Below, in pieces: positions 35,973 through 52,433 of a stretch of DNA of 64,000 bases. The stretch comes from Serratia liquefaciens (GTDB taxonomy: Bacteria; Pseudomonadota; Gammaproteobacteria; Enterobacterales; Enterobacteriaceae). The stretch spans positions 2,293,019 to 2,357,018 of the forward strand of contig NZ_CP088930.1 of the NCBI RefSeq assembly GCF_027594825.1, in the 5' to 3' direction. A model generated the notes under the pieces. It had not been told where the DNA came from. It ran no database searches and saw nothing but the letters and a program-made list of their open reading frames with translations. The first letter of the stretch is position 1. Each line of letters opens with the position of its first letter. The position numbers and the translations under genes are program-made.

Positions 35973-36827
35973 ATGGTGCTGATGATTGTCAGCGGCCGTT
36001 CCGGTTCAGGGAAATCCGTCGCCTTGCGGGCGCTGGAAGACATGGGTTTTTACTGCGTTGATAACCTGCCCGTGGTACTGCTGCCGCAGCTTGCCAATAC
36101 GCTGGCGGAACGCAACAGCTCCGCGGCGGTAAGCATCGACGTGCGTAACATGCCGGAATCGCCGGAAGTGTTTGAATATGCGATGACCCAACTGCCTGAC
36201 AGCTTTTCGCCGCAGTTGCTGTTCCTCGACGCCGATCGTAACACACTGATCCGCCGTTACAGTGATACTCGCCGCTTACACCCGCTGTCCAGCAAGAACC
36301 TGTCGCTGGAAAGCGCCATCGACGAAGAAAGCGATCTGCTTGAGCCGCTGCGTTCACGGGCCGATCTGATCATCGACACCTCGGAAATGTCGGTGCATGA
36401 ACTGGCCGAAATGCTGCGTACCCGTTTACTGGGCAAACGCGAGCGCGAACTGACCATGGTGTTTGAATCCTTCGGCTTTAAACACGGCATCCCGATCGAC
36501 GCCGATTACGTGTTCGACGTGCGATTCCTGCCGAACCCACACTGGGATCCTAAACTTCGCCCGATGACCGGCCTGGATAAACCCGTCGCCTCATTCCTCG
36601 ATCGCCACACTGAAGTGCACAACTTTATCTACCAGACCCGCAGCTATCTGGAACAGTGGCTGCCGATGCTGGAAACCAACAACCGCAGTTACCTGACGGT
36701 GGCCATTGGCTGTACCGGCGGTAAGCACCGTTCCGTCTACGTGGCAGAACAGTTGGCCGACTACTTCCGTTCACGCGGCAAGAACGTGCAATCGCGACAC
36801 CGCACGCTGGAAAAACGTAAACAATGA
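35973..36827 (+). CDS. rapZ: RapZ, RNase adapter protein
   Basis: Binds sRNA GlmZ and targets it to RNase E, controlling glucosamine-6-phosphate synthase. Start 35973 (GGGGGAG upstream) gives 284 residues, same as E. coli; the open frame from 35889 is rejected. Walker A GRSGSGKS (~8-15), Walker B-like region, and the C-terminal [10 protein letters not shown] and basic tail ([12 protein letters not shown]..) for RNA binding. Its stop overlaps npr. Confidence 0.98.
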
Positions 36828-37096
36828 CGGTCAAGCAAACGGTTGAAATCAAAAACAAACTGGGCATGCACGCCCGCCCGGCGATGAAGCTGTTCGAGCT
36901 GGTGCAGAGTTTTGACGCCGAAGTGATGCTGCGTAACGACAGCGGCACCGAGGCCGAAGCTAGCAGCGTGATTGCACTGCTGATGCTGGACTCCGCGCAG
37001 GGGCGCCATATCGAGGTGGAAGCCACCGGCCCGGATGAGGTAAAAGCGCTGGCCGCAGTGGTTGAGCTGATTAATTCCGGTTTTGACGAAGACTAG
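36824..37096 (+). CDS. npr: NPr, HPr-like phosphocarrier of the nitrogen PTS
   Basis: Passes phosphate from EI-Ntr (PtsP) to PtsN. 90 residues; active-site His in [10 protein letters not shown] (~15-17). ATGA overlap with rapZ. Last gene of the operon. Confidence 0.97.
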
Positions 37097-37360: not shown

Positions 37361-37407
37361 TAATAGCTCAGCCGCTACAATGATGACAGGGCATGAATGA
37401 GGGAGCG

Positions 37408-37719
37408 ATGCATATAATTTCAAGGGAACCGTTCAACGAGGCCGCTCTCCGCTACCCCAACGAAGCAGCCTCTCTCAACACAATCTACAAAACGCTGCGC
37501 CGAGGGACGTTCCATACACCGGAAGAATTAAAATCCCTTTTCCCTAGCCTGGACCGAATGAAGTACAAAGCAAAATGGTGGGTCATTGATGTCGGAGGAA
37601 ATCATCTCAGGATCTTATTCTTTGCCAACTTTGATACCCAGAAAATATTTGTTAAACAGATAGTGACTCACGCAGAGTACGACAGATTACTGCAGCAGTA
37701 CCGGAGGAACCCAAAATGA
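37408..37719 (+). CDS. higB: HigB, type II mRNA-interferase toxin
   Basis: RelE-superfamily ribosome-dependent mRNA interferase. 103 residues from ATG 37408, which has GGGAG 5 nt upstream; the in-frame start at 37393 has none. Resembles E. coli HigB (YgjN) over its length: FPSLDRMKYKAKWWVIDVGG, NHLRILFF, and the C-terminal basic THAEYDRLLQQYRR. Toxin-first order and ATGA overlap with higA are typical of hig loci. The region is more AT-rich than its neighbours. Confidence 0.9.
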   Translation: MHIISREPFNEAALRYPNEAASLNTIYKTLRRGTFHTPEELKSLFPSLDRMKYKAKWWVIDVGGNHLRILFFANFDTQKIFVKQIVTHAEYDRLLQQYRRNPK

Positions 37720-38138
37720 TCACCGATGCGCTTAAGGCCACCCATGAGCTGTTGCGCGCCATTCCCTTATTAGGTGGCAGCACCTCGCCGCAGGATTACC
37801 GTGATGCTCTGGCGTTAGTGGAACACCTGCTTGAAACCGACGAGCGCCACCCGCTGATTGACGTTCTGGCAGCCAAGATCGCCGAGTATGAAGATAACAG
37901 CCCTGATTTTGCGGAGTTCAATCAGCGCATCGCACAGCTACCGCAAGGCGTAGCCGCGCTCAGCGTACTGATGGAGCAATACGGTCTCAGCCAAAGCGAC
38001 TTCGAAAACGAGATCGGCAAAAAGTCACTGGTGAGCCAAATTCTAAGCGGAAAGCGATCGCTGACCATCCCCCATATCATGGCGCTGGCAAAACGTTTCA
38101 ACCTGCCGCCGGCCTTGTTCTTGCCAGAAACCCGTTAG
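37716..38138 (+). CDS. higA: HigA, antitoxin with XRE-type helix-turn-helix
   Basis: Neutralises HigB and represses the operon. 140 residues, like E. coli HigA (YgjM, 138). An acidic helical N-terminal domain (about 1-80) precedes a C-terminal HTH (LMEQYGLSQSDFENEIGKKSLVSQ..., about 90-135). Translationally coupled to higB. Convergent with the PRD regulator gene. Confidence 0.92.
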   Translation: MITDALKATHELLRAIPLLGGSTSPQDYRDALALVEHLLETDERHPLIDVLAAKIAEYEDNSPDFAEFNQRIAQLPQGVAALSVLMEQYGLSQSDFENEIGKKSLVSQILSGKRSLTIPHIMALAKRFNLPPALFLPETR

Positions 38139-38153
38139 GGAGGGATCCCAGTC

Positions 38154-40070
38154 CTAGATCCGGCTCAAGCAGTCCAGCGCCACCGCCTTGAAGCTGTCGA
38201 AGTTGTCGCTGCCCAACAGGCGGCTCATTGAGCGTTCACGTACAAAGGTGACGAACAGTTCGTAAATTGCCATCGCTTCTTCGTAATCACTTTTGCTGAT
38301 CGCCAACAGGAAGATCACGTGGGCGATTTCTCCCTCTCCCCAGACCACGCCCTGCGGCGCCAGCAGCGTCACCACCACGGTTTTCTTCGCCAACAGGCCC
38401 AGCGAGTGCGGCAGTGCAATCCCTTCTCCCAGCAACGTGGAAACAATCGCCTCACGTTCCACAACCGATGGATAGAAATCATCGCCAACGTAGCCTTCAC
38501 TCTCCAGTTGGCTGCACACTTTCTGGAACAATTGCGCCTGAGTCAGCGGCTCGTTCACCACCATAAAATGCTCGGCGTCGAAAAATTTCTCCAGCATGTA
38601 GGGCTTGGTGCGATCCACCAGCACCAGCTTACCCAGCTGTTCGAGCTGGTATTCGGTCGGGAACGGCGACATCACCACCACCGGTTTGTTCTTTTCGCTG
38701 ACCCGCGCGTTGGAAATGACAAAGTCTTCGTCGATATGATTGAGTACCTCGTAATCGCGTAGCGAAACGATGCGCGTCATCACCAACTGCGGGTATTTGC
38801 GCGCAATTTGCGCCTGGATCATCCGGACCGTCGAGTTGCCGGTATCGCAGACCAACATCACCTGCGGGTGGCGTTCGTAGCCGATGTTGTAATGCCGCTC
38901 CAGGCCAACGCCAATGTGCAGCACCAAATAGCCGATCTCGTTTTCACTCAGGGTGTAAGGCGTGTATTTTCCCCAGCTCGATACGGCCGCCAGCGTTACG
39001 TCGTAGGCCATCGGGTAGTGCTGCTTGATGTTCGCCAACAGGGGATTGGGGATATTAATCTGGTATTTCACCCGGGTGATCATGGTTTTGATGTGGGTGA
39101 GCAGATCGGCCCGCAGCTGTTTGTCCCCCTGCAGGTTGTAGTTATAGTGCGAATTGATATACGACAGGATGTAATCCACCAGCGCCTCTTCATCGTCGGC
39201 GTTGATCTCGGTCGGCTGCACCTCCTGCACGCGACGCGCGGCGATATTGACCCGCAGATAAGCCTCCTCCGCCACCGAGACCTCTTTGCCGCTGGCTTTG
39301 CGTAACTCCCCGGCTAACCAGGTAGAGGCCTTGCGCACCGCGTCATCACCGTCCTCAACGTCAAAGTCCGGCAGCGGATAGCCGTCGGTAATGCGCCGCA
39401 GTGCCACCGCACAGTAGAAAATCAGGTACTGCTCACCCTCGTCGGTCAGACGAATAGCGTATTGCGACAGCAGCGGATGCAGCAGCCCGGCAAAGGTCGC
39501 CACCTGCGGTTGCCGCAGGATCTCATTGTTAAGCAACGGGTTCTCGGCGTCGGCCAAATGCAGTTGGAATAACAAGTCGGTCAGACAGGCACGGATCGCC
39601 ATCTCCGAACCGAACAGCTTCATGCCGTAGCGCGGCTTGGTCTCGATGGTCAACTGATAGTGCGCCAGGCGCTCCCTCACCTCAGCCATGTCGTTTTGCA
39701 GCGTGCCGCGGCTGACAAACCATTCGTCGGCTAAATCTTCCAGCTTCAGAGAAAAGGCTGAGGTCAAAAAACGAACCAGCAGATAGTGCACCCGCTCCTG
39801 TGCGCTGCGCGGCGTAGCGTGCTTTTTACGCTCCTGATGCTGCAGGGCGCTGAACAACCTGGCGTCATCCACCTGCAGGCGATAGCCCGCCCCGCGGCTA
39901 TGCACAAAGTGCGCACCATACTTTTCCAAAATATCGTTCAGCGCGGTGATGTCAGCGCGTACGGTTCGGGTGGACACAGCGAAGCGCTTCGCCAACTCAT
40001 CCTGAGGCAAGGTTTCGGACTGCAAAGCATCAAACAGATAGGCCAAACGCGGGTAGGGAAATCGCACCAT
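38154..40070 (-). CDS. PRD-containing transcriptional regulator with EIIB and EIIA domains
   Basis: PTS-controlled DNA-binding regulator of the MtlR/LicR type, not an RNA-binding antiterminator: the N-terminus is an HTH (about 5-60) with a second Mga-like HTH (85-165), rather than a CAT RNA-binding domain. Two PRD domains follow (about 180-290 and 295-400); the second keeps His336 and His395, while the first lacks clear paired histidines. An EIIB-Gat-like domain has Cys408 (VCDTGNST), and the C-terminal EIIA domain has His555 (ALPHSLG). 638 residues. Directly downstream of the lactonase gene and in the same direction as the DUF4310-4312 operon, which it may control. Confidence 0.88.
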   Translation of the reverse strand: MVRFPYPRLAYLFDALQSETLPQDELAKRFAVSTRTVRADITALNDILEKYGAHFVHSRGAGYRLQVDDARLFSALQHQERKKHATPRSAQERVHYLLVRFLTSAFSLKLEDLADEWFVSRGTLQNDMAEVRERLAHYQLTIETKPRYGMKLFGSEMAIRACLTDLLFQLHLADAENPLLNNEILRQPQVATFAGLLHPLLSQYAIRLTDEGEQYLIFYCAVALRRITDGYPLPDFDVEDGDDAVRKASTWLAGELRKASGKEVSVAEEAYLRVNIAARRVQEVQPTEINADDEEALVDYILSYINSHYNYNLQGDKQLRADLLTHIKTMITRVKYQINIPNPLLANIKQHYPMAYDVTLAAVSSWGKYTPYTLSENEIGYLVLHIGVGLERHYNIGYERHPQVMLVCDTGNSTVRMIQAQIARKYPQLVMTRIVSLRDYEVLNHIDEDFVISNARVSEKNKPVVVMSPFPTEYQLEQLGKLVLVDRTKPYMLEKFFDAEHFMVVNEPLTQAQLFQKVCSQLESEGYVGDDFYPSVVEREAIVSTLLGEGIALPHSLGLLAKKTVVVTLLAPQGVVWGEGEIAHVIFLLAISKSDYEEAMAIYELFVTFVRERSMSRLLGSDNFDSFKAVALDCLSRI

Positions 40071-40121
40071 TCTCTTTCCGTCAATTAGAGTGCCCGCCAG
40101 GAGGCTCCGGCGGGCAACAAG

Positions 40122-41339
40122 TTACTTGGCAAGCGGCAAGAACACCATTTGCGAGGGGCTGCCCACTGGCGTATAGCCTTCAACAAAGCTGAGTTTGCCA
40201 CTGGCCTTATCCACGCTGAAGCGGGTGACGTTATCGCTGCGTTGATTCATCGCATACAGATAACGCCCGTCCGGGCTCAGCGTAAGCGATCGCGGGTAAT
40301 CTCCGCGCGTCCAGGTTTCCGCCACCGAATGCAGCTCGCCGCCGCTGCCCACGCTAAACTGCGCAATGCTGTTGTGCAGCCGATTGGCCACGTACAGGTT
40401 TTTGCCATCCTCGCTCAGGACCAGGCCGGCGGCGAAGTTGGTGCCTTTATAATCGGCAGGCAGCGAAGAGACCACGTGCAACTGTTTCAGAGTACCTTTT
40501 TGATTATCAAAACGGTAGCTGGTCAGCGTGGAAGCCTCTTCATTCACCAGCAGCACGGTTTTCCCGTCCGGATGGAACACGAAATGACGCGGCCCGGCGC
40601 CGGCAGAAGATGCCGCGATCCACGGCGGATCGTTCGGCGTTAACTGGCCGCTGGCGTCGTCAAAGCGCCATTGATAAATACGATCCAGCCCCAGATCGGT
40701 AGAGAATACAAACTTGCCGCTCGGATCGCTGGCGATCATATGCGCATGCGGGCCATTGTGATCGCTGATGGCAAAACTCCCCTCCACCGCCGCCTCCGGC
40801 TTGCCGGCCCCTGCCGGCCCTTGCTGTTGCTGCACCGAACTGGCCTTACCCAGCTTGCCGTCGCCCTCAACCGGGAAAACCGCTACGGTGCCGCTGACAT
40901 AGTTTGCCACCAGCAGGTGGCGCCCGTTTGGCGTCAGGAAAAGATAAACCGGCCCCGCCCCCTGCGAATCAACCTGATTGAGCTGGGTCAGGCTGCCGTC
41001 CTTTGGTTGGATGCGGTAAGCGATAATGCCGCCGTGTTGAGTCCCGTTAAAGTCCGCCACTTCACTGGCGACATACAGCGTCTGGCCTTTGGCATCCACG
41101 GTAAGCTGCGCCGGATTCGGCTGGCTGCTGGCCAACGTCCTGGCGCTCAGTGCACCACTGACCGGATCGACCTGCACCCGGTAAACGCCTTCGCCGTTAG
41201 GGTTGTAAGTACCGATATAAGCAAAATGAGATGACGTAGATTTCATTGCATCCTCAGCATGAAGCGCCGGGCTAGCCATTGCCAGCAGCGCCAGAGTGAC
41301 TGCAGTTCGCAGGGTGGAAGAAGTTTGCCAGTTTCGCAT
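40122..41339 (-). CDS. Exported lactonase-family seven-bladed propeller protein
   Basis: Belongs to the YbhE/6-phosphogluconolactonase-type lactonase family, but has a signal peptide (MRNWQTSSTLR, hydrophobic 12-23, cut after LHA), so it would act in the periplasm or outside, not in the pentose phosphate pathway. Repeated propeller blades are recognisable by SPDGRYLYAMN, TPNGRHLLVAN, HPDGKTVLLVN and SEDGKNLYVAN. 405 residues from ATG 41339, which has AGGA upstream. Placed between the DgaF-like aldolase and the PRD regulator, it could hydrolyse an exogenous aldonolactone for the operon; this is inference. Confidence 0.85.
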   Translation of the reverse strand: MRNWQTSSTLRTAVTLALLAMASPALHAEDAMKSTSSHFAYIGTYNPNGEGVYRVQVDPVSGALSARTLASSQPNPAQLTVDAKGQTLYVASEVADFNGTQHGGIIAYRIQPKDGSLTQLNQVDSQGAGPVYLFLTPNGRHLLVANYVSGTVAVFPVEGDGKLGKASSVQQQQGPAGAGKPEAAVEGSFAISDHNGPHAHMIASDPSGKFVFSTDLGLDRIYQWRFDDASGQLTPNDPPWIAASSAGAGPRHFVFHPDGKTVLLVNEEASTLTSYRFDNQKGTLKQLHVVSSLPADYKGTNFAAGLVLSEDGKNLYVANRLHNSIAQFSVGSGGELHSVAETWTRGDYPRSLTLSPDGRYLYAMNQRSDNVTRFSVDKASGKLSFVEGYTPVGSPSQMVFLPLAK

Positions 41340-41354
41340 AGTTATCCTGATGGT

Positions 41355-41460
41355 ATACCCGTCGTCTTTCAAGCCACAGCGTTGTTATCTGCACTCACTC
41401 CCCCCAAAAGTAAACGCCTGGGGATGAATAAGCTGGCCGCCTAGCTGCAATTTGAAAGCC
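41355..41460 (-). repeat. Inverted-repeat intergenic element, copy 2
   Basis: ATACCCGTCGTCTTTCAAG (from 41355) at one end and GCTGCAATTTGAAAGCC (41444-41460) at the other are imperfect inverted repeats; CTCACTCCCCCC and CTGGGGATGAATAAG lie inside. Read on the minus strand it matches copy 1 (29929-30035) over GCTTTCAAxTTGCAGCxAGGCGGC and TCATCCCCAGG, and again over the GACGGGTAT end. It separates the lactonase/regulator pair from the aldolase. Confidence 0.75.
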
Positions 41461-41546
41461 AGAGGGGAAAGATAGTGGCGCGGTGTGCCCGCGCCTGGGG
41501 ATACAGAGCCTGCGCCTCCCTGCCTTACGTCATCCGATAATGCGCT

Positions 41547-42287
41547 TTACCCCACCAGCTTTTTGGTGGTCGCCAGCAGGGCTTTCACGTCCTGTGGGCG
41601 GGTGTTGCCGGTGGCGGAATCGATGATTGAACTGTAGATGTGCGGGATCACGCGCTTCACGCCGGCAGCCAATGCGATCTCGACGATCGGCTCGAAGTTT
41701 TCCAGATCGATACCGCCGGTAGGTTCCAGCATAAAGTCATGCTCGGCACAGGCTTTGGCGACATACTCGTATTCTTCTCTGCATGCCAGTCCGCCCATCG
41801 GGAAATATTTGATTGAGCTGCCGCCCATGTCTTTCAACAAGGCGATGGCGGTTTCCACCGGCACAATGCCGTCCGGCGCGGCAGCGCTCAGCGGCCCCGT
41901 CGAAATCTTCACCCAGCCAACACGGCCGGTTGGCGACACCAGACCGTTCACCACGCTGTCATTCTGGCCCAGCAGCGCACGGCTGGCACCCACACCGGTA
42001 AACACCTGATTGACGTGCTGCGGCTGCACTTTCTGGGAAATCAGACTGACCATCGCCGATTGTTTAGGATCGCCTGCGCCCAGCCCCACCGACAACGCAT
42101 TCTCAATCAGTCGCGCATAGCGCTGCATATCCGCAACTGCACTGTCGACGTCCGGGTAGTTCTTGGAAAGCACCCCCACCAGCACATGCCCTTCTGCCGC
42201 GGCATAAATCTCCTGCGCGTTGTCTTTCGAACCGGCCAACACGTTGAGACACACGCGGTCGCGATAGTAGTTAGGTTGCAGCTTCAT
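41547..42287 (-). CDS. dgaF: DgaF-like 2-dehydro-3-deoxy-6-phosphogluconate aldolase
   Basis: Member of the KDPG-aldolase-like family named after Enterococcus EF_0839, which includes Salmonella DgaF; cleaves KDG-6-phosphate (or a relative) to pyruvate and glyceraldehyde 3-phosphate. 246 residues, TIM-barrel type, with a Lys in SSIKYFPMGGL (Lys160) as probable Schiff-base residue and the phosphate-site region EPTGGIDLENF. Start overlaps the DgaE-like stop (ATGA). It is the last enzyme of the operon. The symbol is given at family level; the exact substrate is not proven. Confidence 0.85.
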   Translation of the reverse strand: MKLQPNYYRDRVCLNVLAGSKDNAQEIYAAAEGHVLVGVLSKNYPDVDSAVADMQRYARLIENALSVGLGAGDPKQSAMVSLISQKVQPQHVNQVFTGVGASRALLGQNDSVVNGLVSPTGRVGWVKISTGPLSAAAPDGIVPVETAIALLKDMGGSSIKYFPMGGLACREEYEYVAKACAEHDFMLEPTGGIDLENFEPIVEIALAAGVKRVIPHIYSSIIDSATGNTRPQDVKALLATTKKLVG

Positions 42288-43402
42288 GCTTGTTTCTCCT
42301 TGAACAGATTTTTAATGCAGGTGAAAACGGTCATCAGCTGTTGCTGGTCAACGCTGCGCACGTCCACTTCAATCTTGCCTTCGTTAGCTTTATAACCGCG
42401 GAAGTAGATGGCGATCTCGCCGGTTTTCAGCGCCTGCACGATGTCGTAGGTCGACCATCCCAGCACCGCTTCGTCGAACGTGATTTCTGCCCGTGCAATA
42501 TCACGCCCGGCGCTGTCCCAGACGGTTTTGGCGCTGATACCGGCCAGGGTGTTCAGACTGTCGATAAACGGCGTCATTCTTTCCACCATCTGCTGTCCGG
42601 TGGTTTTCTCCAGCCGCAGGTAGCTTTCGATCGCCTGCGTCAGGCCGAGGATGCCCTCTTTACCGACCTTCATCGCCCGGCCAATACCGCCGGTTTGCAG
42701 CTTCACCCATTCAACGTACTGTTTCCTGCCAATCACCAGACCGCTGGTGGGGCCTTCGATGGCCTTGGCGCCGCTGTAAACCACCAGATCGGCTCCCATC
42801 TGGTAGTAGCACAGCAGATCTTCTTCCGCCGCGGCATCGACGATCAGCGGCAGGTTATGTTTGCGCGCCACCACCACCGCCTGCTCAACGGAAAGTATGC
42901 TTTTCTGCACGCAGTGGTGTGACTTGATATAGAGAATCGCCGCCGTTTGCGGCGTTATGCAGGCCTCTAGCTGCTCGGCAGAACACTCGTTGGCGTAACC
43001 GGCTTCAACCACCTTCCCCCCGCCCAGCGCCACCATGGTATCGACCGGGGCACCAAAGTTGACATTATGGCCACGCGGCAACACGATTTCGCGTGGAACG
43101 GTAATAGGCGCGGAGTGCAGGTTCACCAACAGGTTGGCGTTGTCTCTGACGATCAGCGCCGCCACTGACTGGGCGATGCCCGCCGAGGCGCAGGAAACTA
43201 CCACCGCGTTTTCGACATTCAGCAGGTTGGCGATGTAAGCGCCGGTCTTGTCGACCAGATCCTTGATTTCGAAGTAGTGGTTCATGCCGTAATCCACGGC
43301 GTCGATAACGTCCTGGCGCGGCGTGGACACGCCGAGTGCAGTCATGCGACCTGAAGTGTTGATGACCTGTTTTAAATTATATTTTTCATAAATCGAAGAC
43401 AT
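42284..43402 (-). CDS. dgaE: DgaE-like PLP-dependent ammonia lyase (SelA-related)
   Basis: SelA-related PLP enzyme. The characterised relative, Salmonella DgaE, eliminates ammonia from D-glucosaminate 6-phosphate to give 2-keto-3-deoxygluconate 6-phosphate. 372 residues from ATG 43402, preceded by AAGGGAAA. The PLP lysine is Lys213 in VVYSGAKAIEGPTSG, with Asp199 (LIVDAAAEED) positioned to contact the pyridine nitrogen. It overlaps the amidohydrolase gene by 17 bp and the aldolase by 4 bp, so the three enzymes are translationally linked. The symbol is family-level. Confidence 0.87.
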   Translation of the reverse strand: MSSIYEKYNLKQVINTSGRMTALGVSTPRQDVIDAVDYGMNHYFEIKDLVDKTGAYIANLLNVENAVVVSCASAGIAQSVAALIVRDNANLLVNLHSAPITVPREIVLPRGHNVNFGAPVDTMVALGGGKVVEAGYANECSAEQLEACITPQTAAILYIKSHHCVQKSILSVEQAVVVARKHNLPLIVDAAAEEDLLCYYQMGADLVVYSGAKAIEGPTSGLVIGRKQYVEWVKLQTGGIGRAMKVGKEGILGLTQAIESYLRLEKTTGQQMVERMTPFIDSLNTLAGISAKTVWDSAGRDIARAEITFDEAVLGWSTYDIVQALKTGEIAIYFRGYKANEGKIEVDVRSVDQQQLMTVFTCIKNLFKEKQA

Positions 43403-44525
43403 GAGCGGCTTTCCCTTCATCGGTTAATAGGATTTCCCCGGCCACCACGGCAGCCAACGGAACCAGCAATTGTTGACCCTCGGCCGACTGCCCTTCTGAA
43501 TCGGCGAACACCTGTGGCCCCTGACGGAGCTCGAACAGCGTGAAATCGGCATCGCAACCCGGTTCCAGCCGCCCCTTATGGGACAGGTGCAGCGCCGAGG
43601 CGGCATTTTCCGTCACGCAGGCAATCACCTGCGGCAGCGACAGCCCCACGCTGAAGAATTTGGACATCACCGTCGCCAGGCTGTGTACCGGCCCGGCCAT
43701 TCGGTTGCGACAGTAGATATCGGAGCTGATGGTATGCGGCAAAATGCCGAGCGCTATCGCCTGCCGTGCCACCTCGAAGCTGAAGCTGGCGGTGCCGTGG
43801 CCAACATCCAGCAAGACGCCGCGCTTTAGCGCGCGCTGGATAGACTCACGCAGTGTGCCCGCCGGTGTCAGAATGCGATTCGGTTTACCGTTGTAGCAGT
43901 GAGTGATAATGTCGCCACGGGTCAGCAGATCGGCGATTTCATCCAGATCCGGCGGGTTATTACCGATATGCACCATCAGTGGCAACAGGTTATTTTCTTG
44001 CTGGATCTCTTTGGCCAATACCAGCGGTCGAATGCCGTTCTGGCCGACCACGCTGCTGCTCATGCGCGCCTTGATGCCGATGACAAAACCGGCATGTTTG
44101 TCGATCGCCCGGCTGACTTTCTGCTTATCGATGTCTGCCAAATCAGCCAGTTCGTTCTGACGCAGCAGGCCAATGCGCGAAATATTCAGGAAGGCGAAAA
44201 CGTTGGTTTTGGTGCTGCGCGTCAGCGTATAAAACGCATCCACGTCGTCGGTGCCGGTACTGCCGGCATCCACCACCGTGGTGACGCCACAGGCCGTGCC
44301 GACCAAGTCCGGTTCGTCATGGTAAATCGGCGAAGAGGGGTAGCAGTGCACGTGGGAGTCGATCCAGCCGGCGCTCAGGCGGCAGTTGCCCGCCAGATCC
44401 AGGTTCCGATGGGCGTGGACGTCGTCGGCCAACTGCCCCACCTCGGCAATCTTGCCGTCCTTGACCGCCAGATCCACCAGCCGATCATCCGCCAGCCTGG
44501 CGCGTCTGATTACTAAGTCATACAT
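43386..44525 (-). CDS. Amidohydrolase/deacetylase-family metalloenzyme (EF_0837 type)
   Basis: Amidohydrolase-superfamily enzyme with a complete binuclear metal site: His58 and His60 (DSHVH), probable carboxylated Lys152 (GIKARMSS), His186 (LMVHIGNN), His209 (IITHCYNG) and catalytic Asp269 (ISSDIYC). 379 residues, TIM barrel flanked by the usual beta-sandwich termini. Members have been annotated as dihydroorotase-like, but this subfamily travels with the DgaE/DgaF enzymes, so it probably removes an N-acyl or N-carbamoyl group from an amino sugar acid. Substrate unproven. Confidence 0.85.
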   Translation of the reverse strand: MYDLVIRRARLADDRLVDLAVKDGKIAEVGQLADDVHAHRNLDLAGNCRLSAGWIDSHVHCYPSSPIYHDEPDLVGTACGVTTVVDAGSTGTDDVDAFYTLTRSTKTNVFAFLNISRIGLLRQNELADLADIDKQKVSRAIDKHAGFVIGIKARMSSSVVGQNGIRPLVLAKEIQQENNLLPLMVHIGNNPPDLDEIADLLTRGDIITHCYNGKPNRILTPAGTLRESIQRALKRGVLLDVGHGTASFSFEVARQAIALGILPHTISSDIYCRNRMAGPVHSLATVMSKFFSVGLSLPQVIACVTENAASALHLSHKGRLEPGCDADFTLFELRQGPQVFADSEGQSAEGQQLLVPLAAVVAGEILLTDEGKAAHVFDL

Positions 44526-44591
44526 ACCGCATTACTCCTTTTCCTGCCTGAGGACGGCACCGCGTACCGTCCTCAGCAATCACGCTCGTGA

Positions 44592-45242
44592 TTAAACGAT
44601 AGCTACCGGGAAAATGGCCCCTAACAGCATCGCACCGAGGATCGCCCCACCGGTAATCGGCTTATTCCAGATATAGAACAGCAAGGCGCCAAGCAGCGAG
44701 CCGATACCGATCGGAATGGAAGCGGTCATCGCCGACAAGATGATCAACGGCCCCAGGAAACGCCCCGAAGAGTTACCGGCGCCCATCATCACGTCCGCCC
44801 CGTAGGTGGAGTTGCTCTGATTGATGGTAAATTTACGCGCCAAAATGATCAGGTAGCCAATCGCCAGGCCAATCACCAGGCCGGTCACCAGCGAGGCGGC
44901 GAAGTTAGCGACCGGGAAGATGATCCCCGCCCCCAGCAGCAGCGCCGGAACCCCCAGCCCCACGCCGGTCTGGATCGCACCGCCGATGTCCAGGATCCCC
45001 ACCAGCGAACCTTCAATGATGCGCGCAAACAGGAAGCTGGCGCCGAAGGCCGCCACGGCACCGTAAACGCCGGTGTCCATTCCCGCACGCAGCATGGAAA
45101 CGAAGGCGACTTCGTTAAACGCGCCAATGCCATACAGGTAGTACATGTGCGTCCCGGCGAACACGCCGGAGGAGAGCAGGCCAACAAAAATCGGGAATGA
45201 CCAGTCGGCATACCAGAAGCCTTTTTGGGTTTGTTCTTCCAT
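44592..45242 (-). CDS. DUF4310 integral membrane protein
   Basis: 216 residues, mostly hydrophobic, with about six membrane segments and many Gly-rich stretches (GVGLGVPALLLGAGIIFP, PIGIGSLLGALLFYIWNK). I recognise it as the DUF4310 family (EF_0833 type), found next to DUF4311, DUF4312 and SFCGS proteins in distant bacteria; no function is established. AAGGAG ribosome-binding site. It lies 11 bp after the DUF4311 gene and is the probable second half of a membrane complex. Confidence 0.82.
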   Translation of the reverse strand: MEEQTQKGFWYADWSFPIFVGLLSSGVFAGTHMYYLYGIGAFNEVAFVSMLRAGMDTGVYGAVAAFGASFLFARIIEGSLVGILDIGGAIQTGVGLGVPALLLGAGIIFPVANFAASLVTGLVIGLAIGYLIILARKFTINQSNSTYGADVMMGAGNSSGRFLGPLIILSAMTASIPIGIGSLLGALLFYIWNKPITGGAILGAMLLGAIFPVAIV

Positions 45243-45253
45243 TTTCCAGCTCC

Positions 45254-46030
45254 TTATTTACCGCTCAGGGTGTTGTGAATGGCGTCCAACCAACCCGGCA
45301 CGCCGAGGCTGAAGGACTCGAGGACTTTCATGTCAAAGCCGCGGAAGAACCCGCTCAGCACGAACAGCAGCACGATCACCGCCATCATGATCTTGGTGAT
45401 TTTGTTCCAGCCGCTCTCTTCCACGCCTTTACCGATCAGGATGCCCAGCACCAGACCCGGTACGGCGTTGCCCATGATCAGCTGCGCCAGGCCGCCGAAG
45501 ATGGTGCCCCAGAAGCCGGAACGGCGTCCGGCGTCGATCGCCGCCAGCCAGAAGATCACCGGCATCACGGTATTCACCAGCAAGTTCGCTGCCGGCACCA
45601 GCACCTTGATCGCCGTCACCTGCAATGCGGCAGGCACGGCGGAAGCCGTGGTATTCAGGAAGGCCACAACCAGCATGCCGATGATGCCGCAGGCGATAGC
45701 CATTTTTTTCGGATCGTGCAGCGTTTGCGCCAGGTTGCGATTTTTAACCATCAACGCAGCCGCGCCCCAGTGTGGAATAATGCGGTGGTCAACGTCCTGC
45801 GTGAAGGCCCCTGCCGCCACTGAAGACGCCCAGGCGTTGAAGAAGAAGCCCAGACCGAATGAGAAGTGGGAAGCCGGATCGCCCTCGCAGGAGTTCAGCT
45901 CGCCCAGGGTGCGGAAAGCCCCCATGCCCTGTGTCGTCGGAGCATGGAACATACGTGCAGCGCCGGCCCCTACGCCAACCCCCACCAGTCCGCCGATAAT
46001 AAGCGACTTAAATAAGATGATTAAAAACAT
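45254..46030 (-). CDS. DUF4311 integral membrane protein
   Basis: 258 residues with about six to seven membrane segments. The N-terminal helix begins at residue 1 (MFLIILFKSLIIGG); a hydrophilic loop follows, with the distinctive ELNSCEGDPASHFSFG and DVDHRIIPHWGAA segments rich in polar/charged residues and His, which are candidates for substrate or phosphate handling. Family DUF4311 (EF_0832 type). Always seen with DUF4310 in my recollection. Function not established; a permease subunit is the simplest idea. Confidence 0.82.
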   Translation of the reverse strand: MFLIILFKSLIIGGLVGVGVGAGAARMFHAPTTQGMGAFRTLGELNSCEGDPASHFSFGLGFFFNAWASSVAAGAFTQDVDHRIIPHWGAAALMVKNRNLAQTLHDPKKMAIACGIIGMLVVAFLNTTASAVPAALQVTAIKVLVPAANLLVNTVMPVIFWLAAIDAGRRSGFWGTIFGGLAQLIMGNAVPGLVLGILIGKGVEESGWNKITKIMMAVIVLLFVLSGFFRGFDMKVLESFSLGVPGWLDAIHNTLSGK

Positions 46031-46060
46031 CAGTATACCCTTTGATTTATGCTAACGTTT

Positions 46061-46357
46061 TTATTTCGCGACGAAGACAACTTTTTCTGTATTGATCATT
46101 GTCACGTTCACGGTTATTTCCAGAGCCACGGAGTAGCTTTTTCTTTCGCGCGGCAGAAAGAAAAACAGAAACTTTTCTTTTGTTATTTTCTCTTCTGCTT
46201 TTAATACGCTGACATCCTGCGGTTCAATACGCAGCAGAATATTACTGGTGGATTTTAATACCGCGCCCTGCACATTGGCCAAGGCGGAAGCAAAAGCTTT
46301 CGCTTTGCTGTCGCCCTTACCCTCCACCTTTACCGACGTTGTATATTGTTCTTTCAT
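46061..46357 (-). CDS. DUF4312 small soluble protein
   Basis: 98 residues, no signal peptide or membrane helix, alternating beta strands and a short helix (KAKAFASALANVQGAVL). Family DUF4312 (EF_0831 type). Its start shares one base with the SFCGS gene stop (TAATG), pointing to stoichiometric co-translation. No catalytic motif is obvious; I see Arg/Lys-rich FLPRERKS near residue 72. Function unknown. Confidence 0.8.
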   Translation of the reverse strand: MKEQYTTSVKVEGKGDSKAKAFASALANVQGAVLKSTSNILLRIEPQDVSVLKAEEKITKEKFLFFFLPRERKSYSVALEITVNVTMINTEKVVFVAK

Positions 46358-46722
46358 TACGGGTTGCCGTGTTTTTTGACGTAGGCTTCCACCAGCCTTT
46401 GACCCAGCTCTTCTTTATCCATAAAACCAAAACCCAATACGGTGCAGCCTTCGTTTATTGCCGTCACGCCCTCATCAATGGAGCGCATGCCGTATTTGGC
46501 TTTGTAGCCGTATTTAGTTTGTGCGGTAATGGCACCCGCGCCGCCGCTGCCGCAGAAAGAAATCCCCAGCTGTGCGCCTTCCGCTTTCATCACGTCGCCC
46601 AGCTTCATGTCAGCCGCCACGCCGGGGATCACGATGGCTTTTCCACCTGCATTTTCAATGCCCTGACCCACTTTCTGACCTTTACCCAAACGATCGCCAA
46701 TCACTACGGTAATCTGACCCAT
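46357..46722 (-). CDS. SFCGS-family glycine-rich small protein
   Basis: 121 residues, soluble, of the family named for its SFCGS motif (EF_0830 type). It begins MGQITVVIGDRLGKGQKV and has GISFCGSGGAGAITAQ with Cys57. A cysteine in a Gly/Ser-rich turn after a beta strand recalls the phosphocysteine loop of PTS EIIB proteins, though here it is mid-protein; this similarity is my inference. A second cysteine is Cys93. CAGGAG ribosome-binding site. Function unknown. Confidence 0.82.
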   Translation of the reverse strand: MGQITVVIGDRLGKGQKVGQGIENAGGKAIVIPGVAADMKLGDVMKAEGAQLGISFCGSGGAGAITAQTKYGYKAKYGMRSIDEGVTAINEGCTVLGFGFMDKEELGQRLVEAYVKKHGNP

Positions 46723-46757
46723 GGTATTTTCTCCTGATTAATTTAATTCGCTAAAAA

Positions 46758-47105
46758 CTATTGGTTATTATCTTTTGCCACTTCAAAATGTACGGAAAGC
46801 AAATAGGCTTCTTCAATCGGCAGAGTGGTGAATTGGTCGACTACCCGTTCCGCCATTTGCATAGATTCCGCCGAGATTTCGTCAAACAGTGATTTATCCA
46901 CTTCCGGTAATGGCTCACCGGTGATTGAGCGCAACACCATGGCGCGAATATGCGACTCCAGCATCTGTTGCTGCACCGCATTGGTATAAATGTCTTCGGC
47001 GTTTAGCATGGCGGTAATATCAGCCAGCACCCGTTCGGTTATCGATCCGGCCGTGCTGACGTCAGGTTGTTCACTATTTTCTCTCGCAGCAGATCCATCA
47101 TTCAC
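46758..47105 (-). CDS. Stand-alone PRD-domain protein (EF_0829 type)
   Basis: 115 residues: a disordered ~20-residue N-terminus and a single PTS-regulation domain with His52 (LESHIRAM) and His106 (LLSVHFEV) at the two positions normally phosphorylated by HPr or EII proteins. There is no DNA- or RNA-binding domain. Start is GTG 47105 with AGGGGAA upstream. First gene of the operon, 35 bp before the SFCGS gene. A phosphorylation-responsive partner of the membrane system, or of the PRD regulator at 38154-40070, is a reasonable guess. Confidence 0.8.
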   Translation of the reverse strand: MNDGSAARENSEQPDVSTAGSITERVLADITAMLNAEDIYTNAVQQQMLESHIRAMVLRSITGEPLPEVDKSLFDEISAESMQMAERVVDQFTTLPIEEAYLLSVHFEVAKDNNQ

Positions 47106-50223: not shown

Positions 50224-50562
50224 TCACTCAATCACCAATTTTACCGATTTGCCTATATTGGCGAGCATATTGATCAATGCATCAAGCGTAAATTTATCTG
50301 TTTTCCGGTTTACCACATCAGACACGCGCGGTCGTGAAGTGTGTAAATACCGAGCGGCTTCCTCCTGCCGATAGCCTTCCCCCTCTATCCAGGCGCTTAT
50401 TTCCCCCATCAGTTGCCTTTTAAGCGCGATGATGTGTTCAATCTCTGCATTGGATTGCGTCTGCAACTGCCGGGCCTCGTCAGGGGCAAACCCCAGGTCA
50501 GCGAACACATTGCCACCTTGTGGTGTAACATGCCTGGAATGGGTATCAATTGGCTTGGTCAT
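50224..50562 (-). CDS. XRE-family antitoxin
   Basis: 112 residues with a C-terminal HTH (YRQEEAARYLHTSRPRVSDVVNRK, about residues 63-86, followed by FTLDALINMLANIGKSVKL) typical of antitoxins that pair with Gp49-like HigB toxins. The N-terminal half is polar and probably disordered until bound. Its ATG overlaps the toxin stop (ATGA). Likely binds the palindrome at 50926-50943. Confidence 0.88.
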   Translation of the reverse strand: MTKPIDTHSRHVTPQGGNVFADLGFAPDEARQLQTQSNAEIEHIIALKRQLMGEISAWIEGEGYRQEEAARYLHTSRPRVSDVVNRKTDKFTLDALINMLANIGKSVKLVIE

Positions 50563-50909
50563 TTTTTCTTACCCCGCTCTTCTATCACTGCGTCATAACG
50601 CACTTTGATAATCTGAATATCGTGCTGACTGGTTTTCGCCGTCTTCTTCTGAAAACTGTGCAAAACATAAATAACGTCATTGAATTTAGCCACGTAAATC
50701 ACTCTAAAAGCCCCTGCAAGGGCATATAAGCGAATTTCACAAACACCGGCGCCACACCCCTTCATCGGTTTCCAATTGCCGGGTTCTACTCCCTTTTGCA
50801 CTTTGCTTAATTCAAACCCGGCAGCTCTACGTGCGTCTACCGGAAACGCTAATAGGTCTGCCAACGAGGAGCCACGCCAGTCAATGGCCTTTTCATTCTC
50901 ATCATCCAT
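50559..50909 (-). CDS. Gp49/HigB-like RelE-superfamily toxin
   Basis: 116 residues of the phage-derived Gp49-like HigB family (RelE fold), a probable ribosome-dependent mRNA interferase. Motifs: [25 protein letters not shown] and [14 protein letters not shown], the last being the family's hallmark. I chose ATG 50909, which has GGAGGT 7 nt upstream; an ATG at 50924 would overlap that site. Toxin-first order with the antitoxin. Confidence 0.88.
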
Positions 50910-50925
50910 GAGCACCACCTCCATA

Positions 50926-51678: not shown

Positions 51679-51978
51679 TCATCCCCGGTGATGTGCAGGT
51701 TCACCGCTGCTTTCACGGATATTGAAACGCAGGCTGCCTTCCAACTCTTCTTCCGCCTCTTCAAACAGCAGGATAATCGCGCCAAAGCGACGTTTGCTGC
51801 GGGCATTGAGATGGGTAAACTCAATCTCGACCGGCAAGCCGATATCCACCGTCACCACGTCCCACAGCGCATCAAGATTGGCGCCAAACGCCTCATCCAG
51901 CGCGAACTTATGCGCGAAGTCGCGGTAAAACGCCGGCAAATCATTAATCTGATTAAAATCGAACTCTACTTTTGCCAT
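51679..51978 (-). CDS. Barstar-family ribonuclease inhibitor
   Basis: Intracellular inhibitor that should block the barnase-like enzyme encoded just upstream. 99 residues from ATG 51978 (GGAG 8 nt upstream). Core motifs match barstar and E. coli YhcO: FYRDFAHKF, LDALWDVV (with acidic residues facing the barnase active site), LPVEIEFTHL and the C-terminal EEAEEELEGSLRF. A GTG at 51987 overlaps the barnase stop (GTGA) and could be an alternative, coupled start. Confidence 0.9.
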   Translation of the reverse strand: MAKVEFDFNQINDLPAFYRDFAHKFALDEAFGANLDALWDVVTVDIGLPVEIEFTHLNARSKRRFGAIILLFEEAEEELEGSLRFNIRESSGEPAHHRG

Positions 51979-51983
51979 CAAGC

Positions 51984-52433
51984 TCACTCCACCCGAATGA
52001 AGTTTTTATAATGGTCACGCGTGACAAAAATCAGGCCATCACTGGAATACAGCAGGCGATCGGCACCGCGCCGGCCGCATTGATAATTGATATCCGCCTC
52101 GCGCCATACCCGGCTGCGGGCCGTAGGCAGTTGTCCTTCACGGTTTGAGAAACGATCGCCGCCAATCGCCTTGCCCGGCAGTACCGAACACAGATTGCCG
52201 TTACGTGCATCCCAACCCTGCTCACGCGCCTGCTTCTTGGTAATGTAATACTCCGGCAGCCGCTGATGCTGCTGCAGGTAGCTCACCACCCTTTTCTGCT
52301 GCGTCAGTTGGTCAATACTCTGGCCTTCGGCCACCGCCGGCACGTTGGTAATAGCCCGATCGTTACCACGCAGTGCGCTAAAACCGGCAATCACAACGGC
52401 GATGACTACCGCCACGAGGATCCGCTTATTCAT
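51984..52433 (-). CDS. Barnase-family exported ribonuclease
   Basis: Guanyl-preferring RNase of the barnase (N1/T1) family. 149 residues: hydrophobic N-terminal signal or anchor (6-18), linker, then a barnase domain (~45-149). All catalytic residues are present: Glu112 (WREADINY), Arg122 and Arg126 (RRGADRLLYSSD), His141 (RDHYKNF), plus the fold motif IGGDRFSNREG. Two cysteines (Cys82, Cys119), absent from Bacillus barnase, could form a stabilising disulphide outside the cytoplasm. Overlaps or abuts the barstar gene downstream. Confidence 0.92.
   Translation of the reverse strand: MNKRILVAVVIAVVIAGFSALRGNDRAITNVPAVAEGQSIDQLTQQKRVVSYLQQHQRLPEYYITKKQAREQGWDARNGNLCSVLPGKAIGGDRFSNREGQLPTARSRVWREADINYQCGRRGADRLLYSSDGLIFVTRDHYKNFIRVE

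Follow-up and report, generated by a model that had tools for sequence, protein, structure and literature searches.

We describe a cluster of genes in a 64,000-nucleotide stretch of the Serratia liquefaciens genome (NZ_CP088930.1, positions 2,293,019 to 2,357,018), hereafter the window. It consists of an eight-gene operon, which includes four protein families of unknown function (SFCGS, DUF4312, DUF4311 and DUF4310), and two further genes. We propose, with a probability of roughly 50%, that this cluster encodes uptake dependent on enzyme I (EI) and HPr of the phosphoenolpyruvate-dependent phosphotransferase system (PTS), and subsequent breakdown, of an N-acylated 2-amino-2-deoxyaldonate, most likely N-acetyl-D-glucosaminate. 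PTS-coupled uptake of an amino sugar acid best fits the observations because an HPr-EI gene accompanies the operon in Bartonella, the DgaE homologues retain phosphate-site arginines, no kinase is found among the ten genes, and regulation involves PRD and EIIA domains. An earlier note on this DNA had suggested that the four proteins form a novel amino-sugar-acid permease in place of a classical enzyme II. The uptake part of that suggestion agrees with our reading, whereas the replacement of a classical enzyme II is a proposal that goes beyond what could be demonstrated. New in the present analysis are the PTS link via HPr-EI, the conservation of the phosphate site, the extension of the gene unit and the predicted RpiB-type fold of SFCGS.

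Gene content and distribution

The eight open reading frames (ORFs) named in the earlier note all lie on the minus strand within 41547-47105, and each product belongs to its stated family by an NCBIfam model of the 'hypoth_equivalog' class (E 6e-38 or better), which bears out the description of eight adjacent genes. Pfam agrees for all but the PRD protein. A lactonase and a PRD/EIIA regulator extend the set to ten same-strand genes spanning 38154-47105 (minus):

46758..47105, minus: PRD-domain protein with a single PRD and a GTG start (TIGR03582, 129.5 bits, over cut-off; PF00874, E 0.018, below cut-off)
46357..46722, minus: SFCGS protein, soluble, predicted RpiB/LacAB fold, conserved D10, R11 and C57 (TIGR03577; PF14272, 3.3e-61)
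46061..46357, minus: DUF4312, small soluble protein (TIGR03578; PF14189, 1.8e-33)
45254..46030, minus: DUF4311, integral membrane protein, putative permease half (TIGR03580; PF14188, 8.4e-120)
44592..45242, minus: DUF4310, integral membrane protein, putative permease half (TIGR03579; PF14187, 5e-106)
43386..44525, minus: amidohydrolase of the EF_0837 type, putative N-deacylase (TIGR03583, 537.7 bits, cut-off 432)
42284..43420, minus: DgaE-family pyridoxal phosphate (PLP) ammonia-lyase, true start maybe a few codons inward (TIGR01437, 588.9 bits, cut-off 385)
41547..42287, minus: DgaF-type 2-keto-3-deoxy-6-phosphogluconate (KDPG) aldolase (NF047796, 388.5 bits, cut-off 300; TIGR03581; PF07071)
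40122..41372, minus: 7-bladed lactonase, accessory, with a signal peptide apparent by eye (PF10282, 3.4e-103)
38154..40070, minus: BglG/MtlR-type regulator with helix-turn-helix (HTH) and PRD domains, an EIIB-like C-loop (by eye) and an EIIA domain with GIALPH (PF00874, PF00359, PF05043, PF08279)

Pfam and NCBIfam scans of these ten genes found no kinase family, no PTS permease family and no permease gene besides DUF4310 and DUF4311. The earlier statement that a sugar kinase is lacking thus holds for all ten genes. The accompanying statement that no classical EIIA is present is correct for the eight genes, but not for the downstream regulator, which has an EIIA domain.

Genome contigs were searched with a DUF4311 alignment, which yielded at least 500 confirmed relatives, and the best 80 loci were kept. 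Probe searches were run on all 80, and 74 had enough flank for the whole cluster. Being the best-scoring relatives, these loci are nearly all from Enterobacterales and give little information on distant lineages; the closest DUF4311 relatives among them, 97-100% identical, are from Serratia. All eight genes were matched in the same order in 73 of the 74 complete loci; the median intergenic gaps range from -17 to 58 bases, and the widest single gap is 286. This arrangement is far from chance, and the cluster is a real and cohesive unit, as had been claimed. The lone exception (L063) misses a DUF4312 match. One locus counted in the 73, from Serratia rubidaea (L036), has several operon genes that match piecewise in different frames, probably through assembly errors. 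In the six loci short of flank the order agrees as far as the sequence reaches, and in L086 the PRD and SFCGS genes are listed swapped, as open frames rather than genes were sorted. The PRD/EIIA regulator follows the operon in all 74 complete loci. The lactonase was matched in 31 of them, always between DgaF and the regulator, and appears optional because no match was found in the remaining 43.

DUF4311 and SFCGS each occur in 12 of the 398 genomes from this phylum, and these are the same 12; among plasmid records they likewise match an identical set of six. DUF4311 was found in none of 394 genomes of another family (guessed to be alphaproteobacterial, hence of little weight), and the viral collection holds no relatives of SFCGS or DUF4311. 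The cluster was seen in Serratia, Yersinia, Pantoea, Klebsiella (the same ten genes as in the window), Chromobacterium and Bartonella, and with extra genes in Enterococcus. The earlier note had reported an identical set in Aeromonas. In the one Aeromonas record (L020) this applies to six genes including the regulator (PRD, SFCGS, DUF4312, DUF4311, DgaF and regulator), whereas DUF4310, the amidohydrolase and DgaE were unmatched by our probes. Among the open-licence papers listed by literature searches, none was a study of the operon's function.

Evidence for PTS coupling and a phosphorylated substrate

The strongest single evidence for PTS coupling comes from plasmids of Bartonella sp. HY406 and HY761. 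In both, the eight genes are followed on the same strand by a gene for a BglG-type regulator and then by a gene called ptsP, encoding 671 amino acids, the product of which contains a PTS-HPr domain and all three EI domains. No kinase is annotated beside the operon. A plasmid-wide protein search with this HPr-EI matched 397 records, and among the best 25, which were listed, the closest relatives from outside Bartonella belong to Caballeronia/Paraburkholderia (54-55% identity). The first of these, from Caballeronia (L167, annotated; 55% identity), is an EIIA-HPr-EI protein whose gene is followed by one for PtsG EIIBC; a second relative (L168) is without annotation. The Caballeronia protein thus has an EIIA domain and adjoins a classical EIIBC, whereas the partners of the Bartonella HPr-EI are the DUF set. 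A sugar-type phosphorelay has moved with, or was added to, the Bartonella operon. On the same small plasmid of strain HY406, a type VI secretion cluster (L166 24911-44894) adjoins the operon.

Phosphorylation by the PTS is known to regulate proteins through their PRD and EIIA domains. In the PRD protein, H52 and H106 are invariant in all 83 aligned sequences, and the protein is a candidate for an HPr-phosphorylated regulator or relay protein. PF00359 (EIIA) occurs together with HTH and PRD domains in the regulators of the window, Bartonella and Xenophilus; this EIIA domain is part of a regulator, and any role in transport would be hypothetical. EI was found in all 18 operon-bearing genomes examined, which is weak evidence, as most are Enterobacteriaceae and possess a PTS anyway. 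An NPr/HPr-like ORF lies at window 36824-37096, shortly downstream of the PRD/EIIA regulator, and weak HPr matches occur on the opposite strand in several Serratia and related loci.

The enzymes point to a phosphorylated amino sugar acid. Excerpts of the study of Salmonella DgaE (PMC9529869) describe a manual docking that places the 6-phosphate of D-glucosaminate-6-phosphate near Arg301, Arg332 and Arg346, and identify His163 as the proton donor. We mapped these residues by hand, via an alignment to 7lc0, onto 82 DgaE homologues, comprising 77 from the 80 loci together with those of the window, the two Bartonella plasmids, E. faecalis and Klebsiella; the other loci were dropped for missing or odd-length genes. 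Equivalents of R301, R332, R346, H163 and the PLP lysine K213 are present in all 82. At H162 a histidine is found in 80 homologues and an alanine in two, including one from Bartonella (L016), and the R226 position is split evenly between Arg (41) and Lys (41). DgaF is the sole PF07071 match in the genome and scores over the KDPG-aldolase equivalog cut-off. Relatives of the amidohydrolase in the Protein Data Bank are 8wzy, 2ics, 2ogj and 8je0. Ornelas et al. in 2013 reportedly found that cog3964 enzymes accept acetyl-(R)-mandelate and, with weak activity, N-acetyl-D-serine, which is a truncated analogue of N-acetyl-D-glucosaminate. From these activities, combined with DgaE and DgaF, N-acetyl-D-glucosaminate is our best guess for the substrate.

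The four proteins of unknown function

By profile and predicted fold, SFCGS is a relative of the RpiB/LacAB sugar-phosphate isomerases in which the active-site cysteine is retained and other active-site residues are missing. Comparison by hhalign gave P 1e-4 against RpiB and P 0.13 against PTS_IIB (PF02302; 29 EIIB sequences). As many as 12 of 13 SFCGS members gave weak matches to RpiB/LacAB models; for PF02502 the window protein was unlisted up to E 10, and 11 of the 13 members match weakly (best E 0.0012). The AlphaFold2 model matches RpiB in Foldseek and has the RpiB/LacAB fold, with the cysteine placed after the third strand and not the first. Lactose EIIB stands at rank 46 in the Foldseek list (TM-score 0.43), and EIIB chains are absent among the 50 matches listed in the VIA list. 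SFCGS shares with RpiB/LacAB the cysteine loop, an Asp after strand 1 and an Asn near the C-terminal strand. It is shorter, however, and in an alignment with 10 of 29 RpiB sequences the cysteine is kept, Ile-Asn replaces His-Asn and GGRHxxR is absent; we take the missing residues to be the ring-opening His and the C-terminal phosphate arginines of RpiB. D10, C57 and other polar residues are conserved. We had considered SFCGS as an EIIB, since its 'CGSGG' loop resembled the EIIB cysteine loop, and rejected this because profile (PTS_IIB of the PF02302 type), topology and fold favour RpiB. A match of PF14272 below the cut-off in the Lactococcus lactis control could represent a gene for LacA or LacB.

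DUF4311 and DUF4310 are strongly hydrophobic (grand average of hydropathy 0.77 and 1.04, respectively), with many hydrophobic segments in DUF4311, and this property together with the gene context suggests a transporter. Both retain invariant polar residues, including R26, H29, E44, D51, H55, D79, H82 and R83 in 84 of 84 DUF4311 sequences, and H32, E44, R74, E77, D85, R136, D150 and R161 in 82 of 82 DUF4310 sequences. No Pfam match to EIIC or EIID was obtained up to E 10 in 24 DUF4311 and 19 DUF4310 members. DUF2232 was matched weakly by all 24 DUF4311 members (best E 0.0034), and hhalign of DUF4311 against EIIC-Gat gave P 0.045 (reversed control 0.22). Among the hhalign comparisons with EIIC-Man, EIID, EIIC-Gat and YhfT, a single one stood clearly apart from its reversed control. 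This DUF4310-EIID comparison with P 0.0048 (reversed 0.2) is not claimed as a relationship, as it was one of ten comparisons and covers a hydrophobic stretch without a shared motif. Matches of DUF4310 to ICE2 (6 of 19 members, best E 0.099) and MMPL (1 of 19, E 0.15) were taken as chance. The predicted DUF4311 model is unusable (predicted local distance difference test score 45). The idea of DUF4311 near EIIC was dropped: PF14188 has two sub-cut-off matches in other genomes, and the one inspected (L014) is spurious because it falls in a DjlA-like frame; a further sub-cut-off match was found in the E. coli control. For DUF4312 no usable match was obtained (RecA fusion chains reached E 6e-4, with no stretch passing alone), and none of its sequence scored as a hydrophobic segment with the threshold applied.

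The E. coli yhf operon offers a parallel layout, with the PRD protein YhfY, to which the window PRD protein is related (BLASTP E 4e-6), YhfU (DUF2620), which also has weak links to RpiB and SFCGS, and the membrane protein YhfT; a similar order of PRD, DUF2620 and YhfT occurs in Cetobacterium. In contrast to the window, YhfY lacks the second PRD His, different enzymes lie downstream, and our comparisons revealed no sequence link between YhfT and DUF4311/DUF4310. A likeness by eye ('FH' and 'FGL..GF') had suggested that DUF4311 and DUF4310 are a split YhfT. This found no support, the hhalign P values of 0.31 and 0.37 (from shallow profiles) being no better than reversed controls. The genome of the window also has a YhfU-like DUF2620 and YhfT pair (L103, G000:C1:2477539-2478810), a possible cousin.

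Proposed pathway and alternatives

According to the proposed route, DUF4311 and DUF4310 together would constitute the membrane permease, with uptake coupled to EI and HPr and the substrate arriving as, or becoming, a 6-phosphate. In the cytoplasm the permease would work with SFCGS and DUF4312, and SFCGS would either carry phosphate on C57 in the place of EIIB or bind or rearrange the sugar acid. The amidohydrolase would strip the acyl group, DgaE would remove ammonia to yield KDPG, and DgaF would cleave the latter to pyruvate and glyceraldehyde-3-phosphate. Reporting on the phosphorylation state of the PTS would fall to the PRD protein together with the PRD/EIIA regulator encoded downstream. 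Where present, the lactonase would open a sugar lactone in the periplasm and could in this way supply the acid. DgaE- and DgaF-type enzymes are shared with the DgaABCDEF system of Salmonella, in which DgaABCD brings in D-glucosaminate as the 6-phosphate, as described in excerpts of PMC9529869. Different from that system, the window has no PTS permease family among its ten genes and has instead the amidohydrolase, the PRD protein, SFCGS, DUF4312, DUF4311 and DUF4310, and its DgaE scores below the DgaE equivalog cut-off. We consider a new permease likely and a phosphorylating one possible. That the system represents a new class of phosphoenolpyruvate-dependent group translocation, unrelated to the known EIIC superfamilies, with an RpiB-fold cysteine protein replacing EIIB and the yhf operon as a second member, is a tentative and rather improbable extension.

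Several observations weigh against PTS-coupled uptake of this substrate. HPr-EI was found on the operon's strand in none of the 74 other loci, and the Bartonella case is a single lineage or event, the HY406 and HY761 proteins being 99.7% identical and the two plasmids counted as one; moreover, this HPr-EI could serve regulation alone. By sequence, SFCGS is unlike PTS_IIB, hence no EIIB was identified. The earlier note had regarded a match to a non-transport family as contrary to its permease proposal, and the RpiB/LacAB fold of SFCGS is such a match. Comparing the profiles of DUF4310 and DUF4311 with EIIC-Man, EIID and EIIC-Gat, as that note had suggested, revealed nothing convincing, although hhalign was insensitive here and also missed EIIC-Man versus EIID (P 0.11). 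The DgaE of the window reaches 367.8 bits against a cut-off of 600 for NF047797 (D-glucosaminate-6-phosphate) and passes the broader TIGR01437, and may therefore have another substrate. Arginines also occupy the three phosphate-site positions in the alignment with 8t7j, a more distant relative, and for this reason they support an anionic group at C6 and not one exact substrate.

The E. faecalis cluster (L018) also belongs here. It keeps the block from PRD to DUF4310 and was thought to be identical to the window set, which is not the case. Between DUF4310 and the amidohydrolase it has an EIIC (PF02378), a 99-amino-acid hydrophobic ORF and a MupG-like gene, and a PfkB kinase gene further on, after the cluster; its DgaF match is in two pieces. 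Its regulator has HTH and PRD domains, with PF00359 (EIIA) unmatched. Because of the EIIC and the PfkB kinase, and of a regulator without an EIIA match, the phosphate in E. faecalis could come from a PTS sugar or from a kinase. On the operon's strand in the 74 loci, nothing was matched by probes for the kinase, EIIC and MupG of the E. faecalis type. The EIIC and the relative of MupG-like 6-phospho-N-acetylmuramidase (L018 11620-14355) hint at a different or additional substrate in E. faecalis.

The PfkB kinase and the regulatory PTS targets, which the Bartonella HPr-EI could serve exclusively, are consistent with an ordinary secondary permease formed by DUF4310/DUF4311. In that case transport would not phosphorylate, a kinase encoded elsewhere would make the 6-phosphate, and the PTS would only regulate, via the PRD protein and the PRD/EIIA regulator. 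We consider this possible but doubtful, as the window's ten genes include no kinase, the E. faecalis-type kinase (the only kinase type probed) went unmatched in all 74 loci, Bartonella has HPr-EI with the operon and no annotated adjoining kinase, and a whole EI for regulation alone would seem costly. Alternatively, SFCGS may be a working sugar-phosphate isomerase or epimerase for another amino sugar, with transport left to DUF4310 and DUF4311, perhaps with DUF4312. Its fold, cysteine loop and conserved polar residues including D10 and C57 agree with such a role. However, the ring-opening His and the GGRHxxR arginines are missing from the alignment, a Dga-type pathway requires no isomerase, and in 73 of 74 loci the gene belongs to the same block as DUF4312 and the membrane genes, apart from the enzymes; we therefore regard an isomerase as unlikely. 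Least probable, in our view, is a membrane-bound modification or sensing complex of the four proteins, with the substrate entering by another system. DUF4310 and DUF4311 have no convincing sequence link to a transporter family (the MMPL match of one DUF4310 included), and an EIIC lies inside the E. faecalis cluster. Against such a complex stand the strong hydrophobicity of both proteins, their constant placement before the genes for catabolism in 73 of 74 loci, and the lack of any other permease in the ten-gene unit.

If PTS-coupled uptake of an amino sugar acid is correct, one role would be assigned to four co-travelling and functionally uncharacterised Pfam families, and the phosphotransferase system would have to be defined more broadly, to include a transporter coupled to it that lacks a recognisable EIIB or EIIC. 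The cluster, a gene set that is widely conserved in bacteria yet unstudied, gains a testable substrate class, the N-acyl aminohexonates.

Elsewhere in the window, small-ORF pairs at 37393-38138 (plus) and 50224-50924 (minus) resemble type II toxin-antitoxin systems (HigBA-like) by eye, and at 51679-52433 (minus) a barstar-like ORF adjoins a secreted-ribonuclease-like ORF, likewise by eye.

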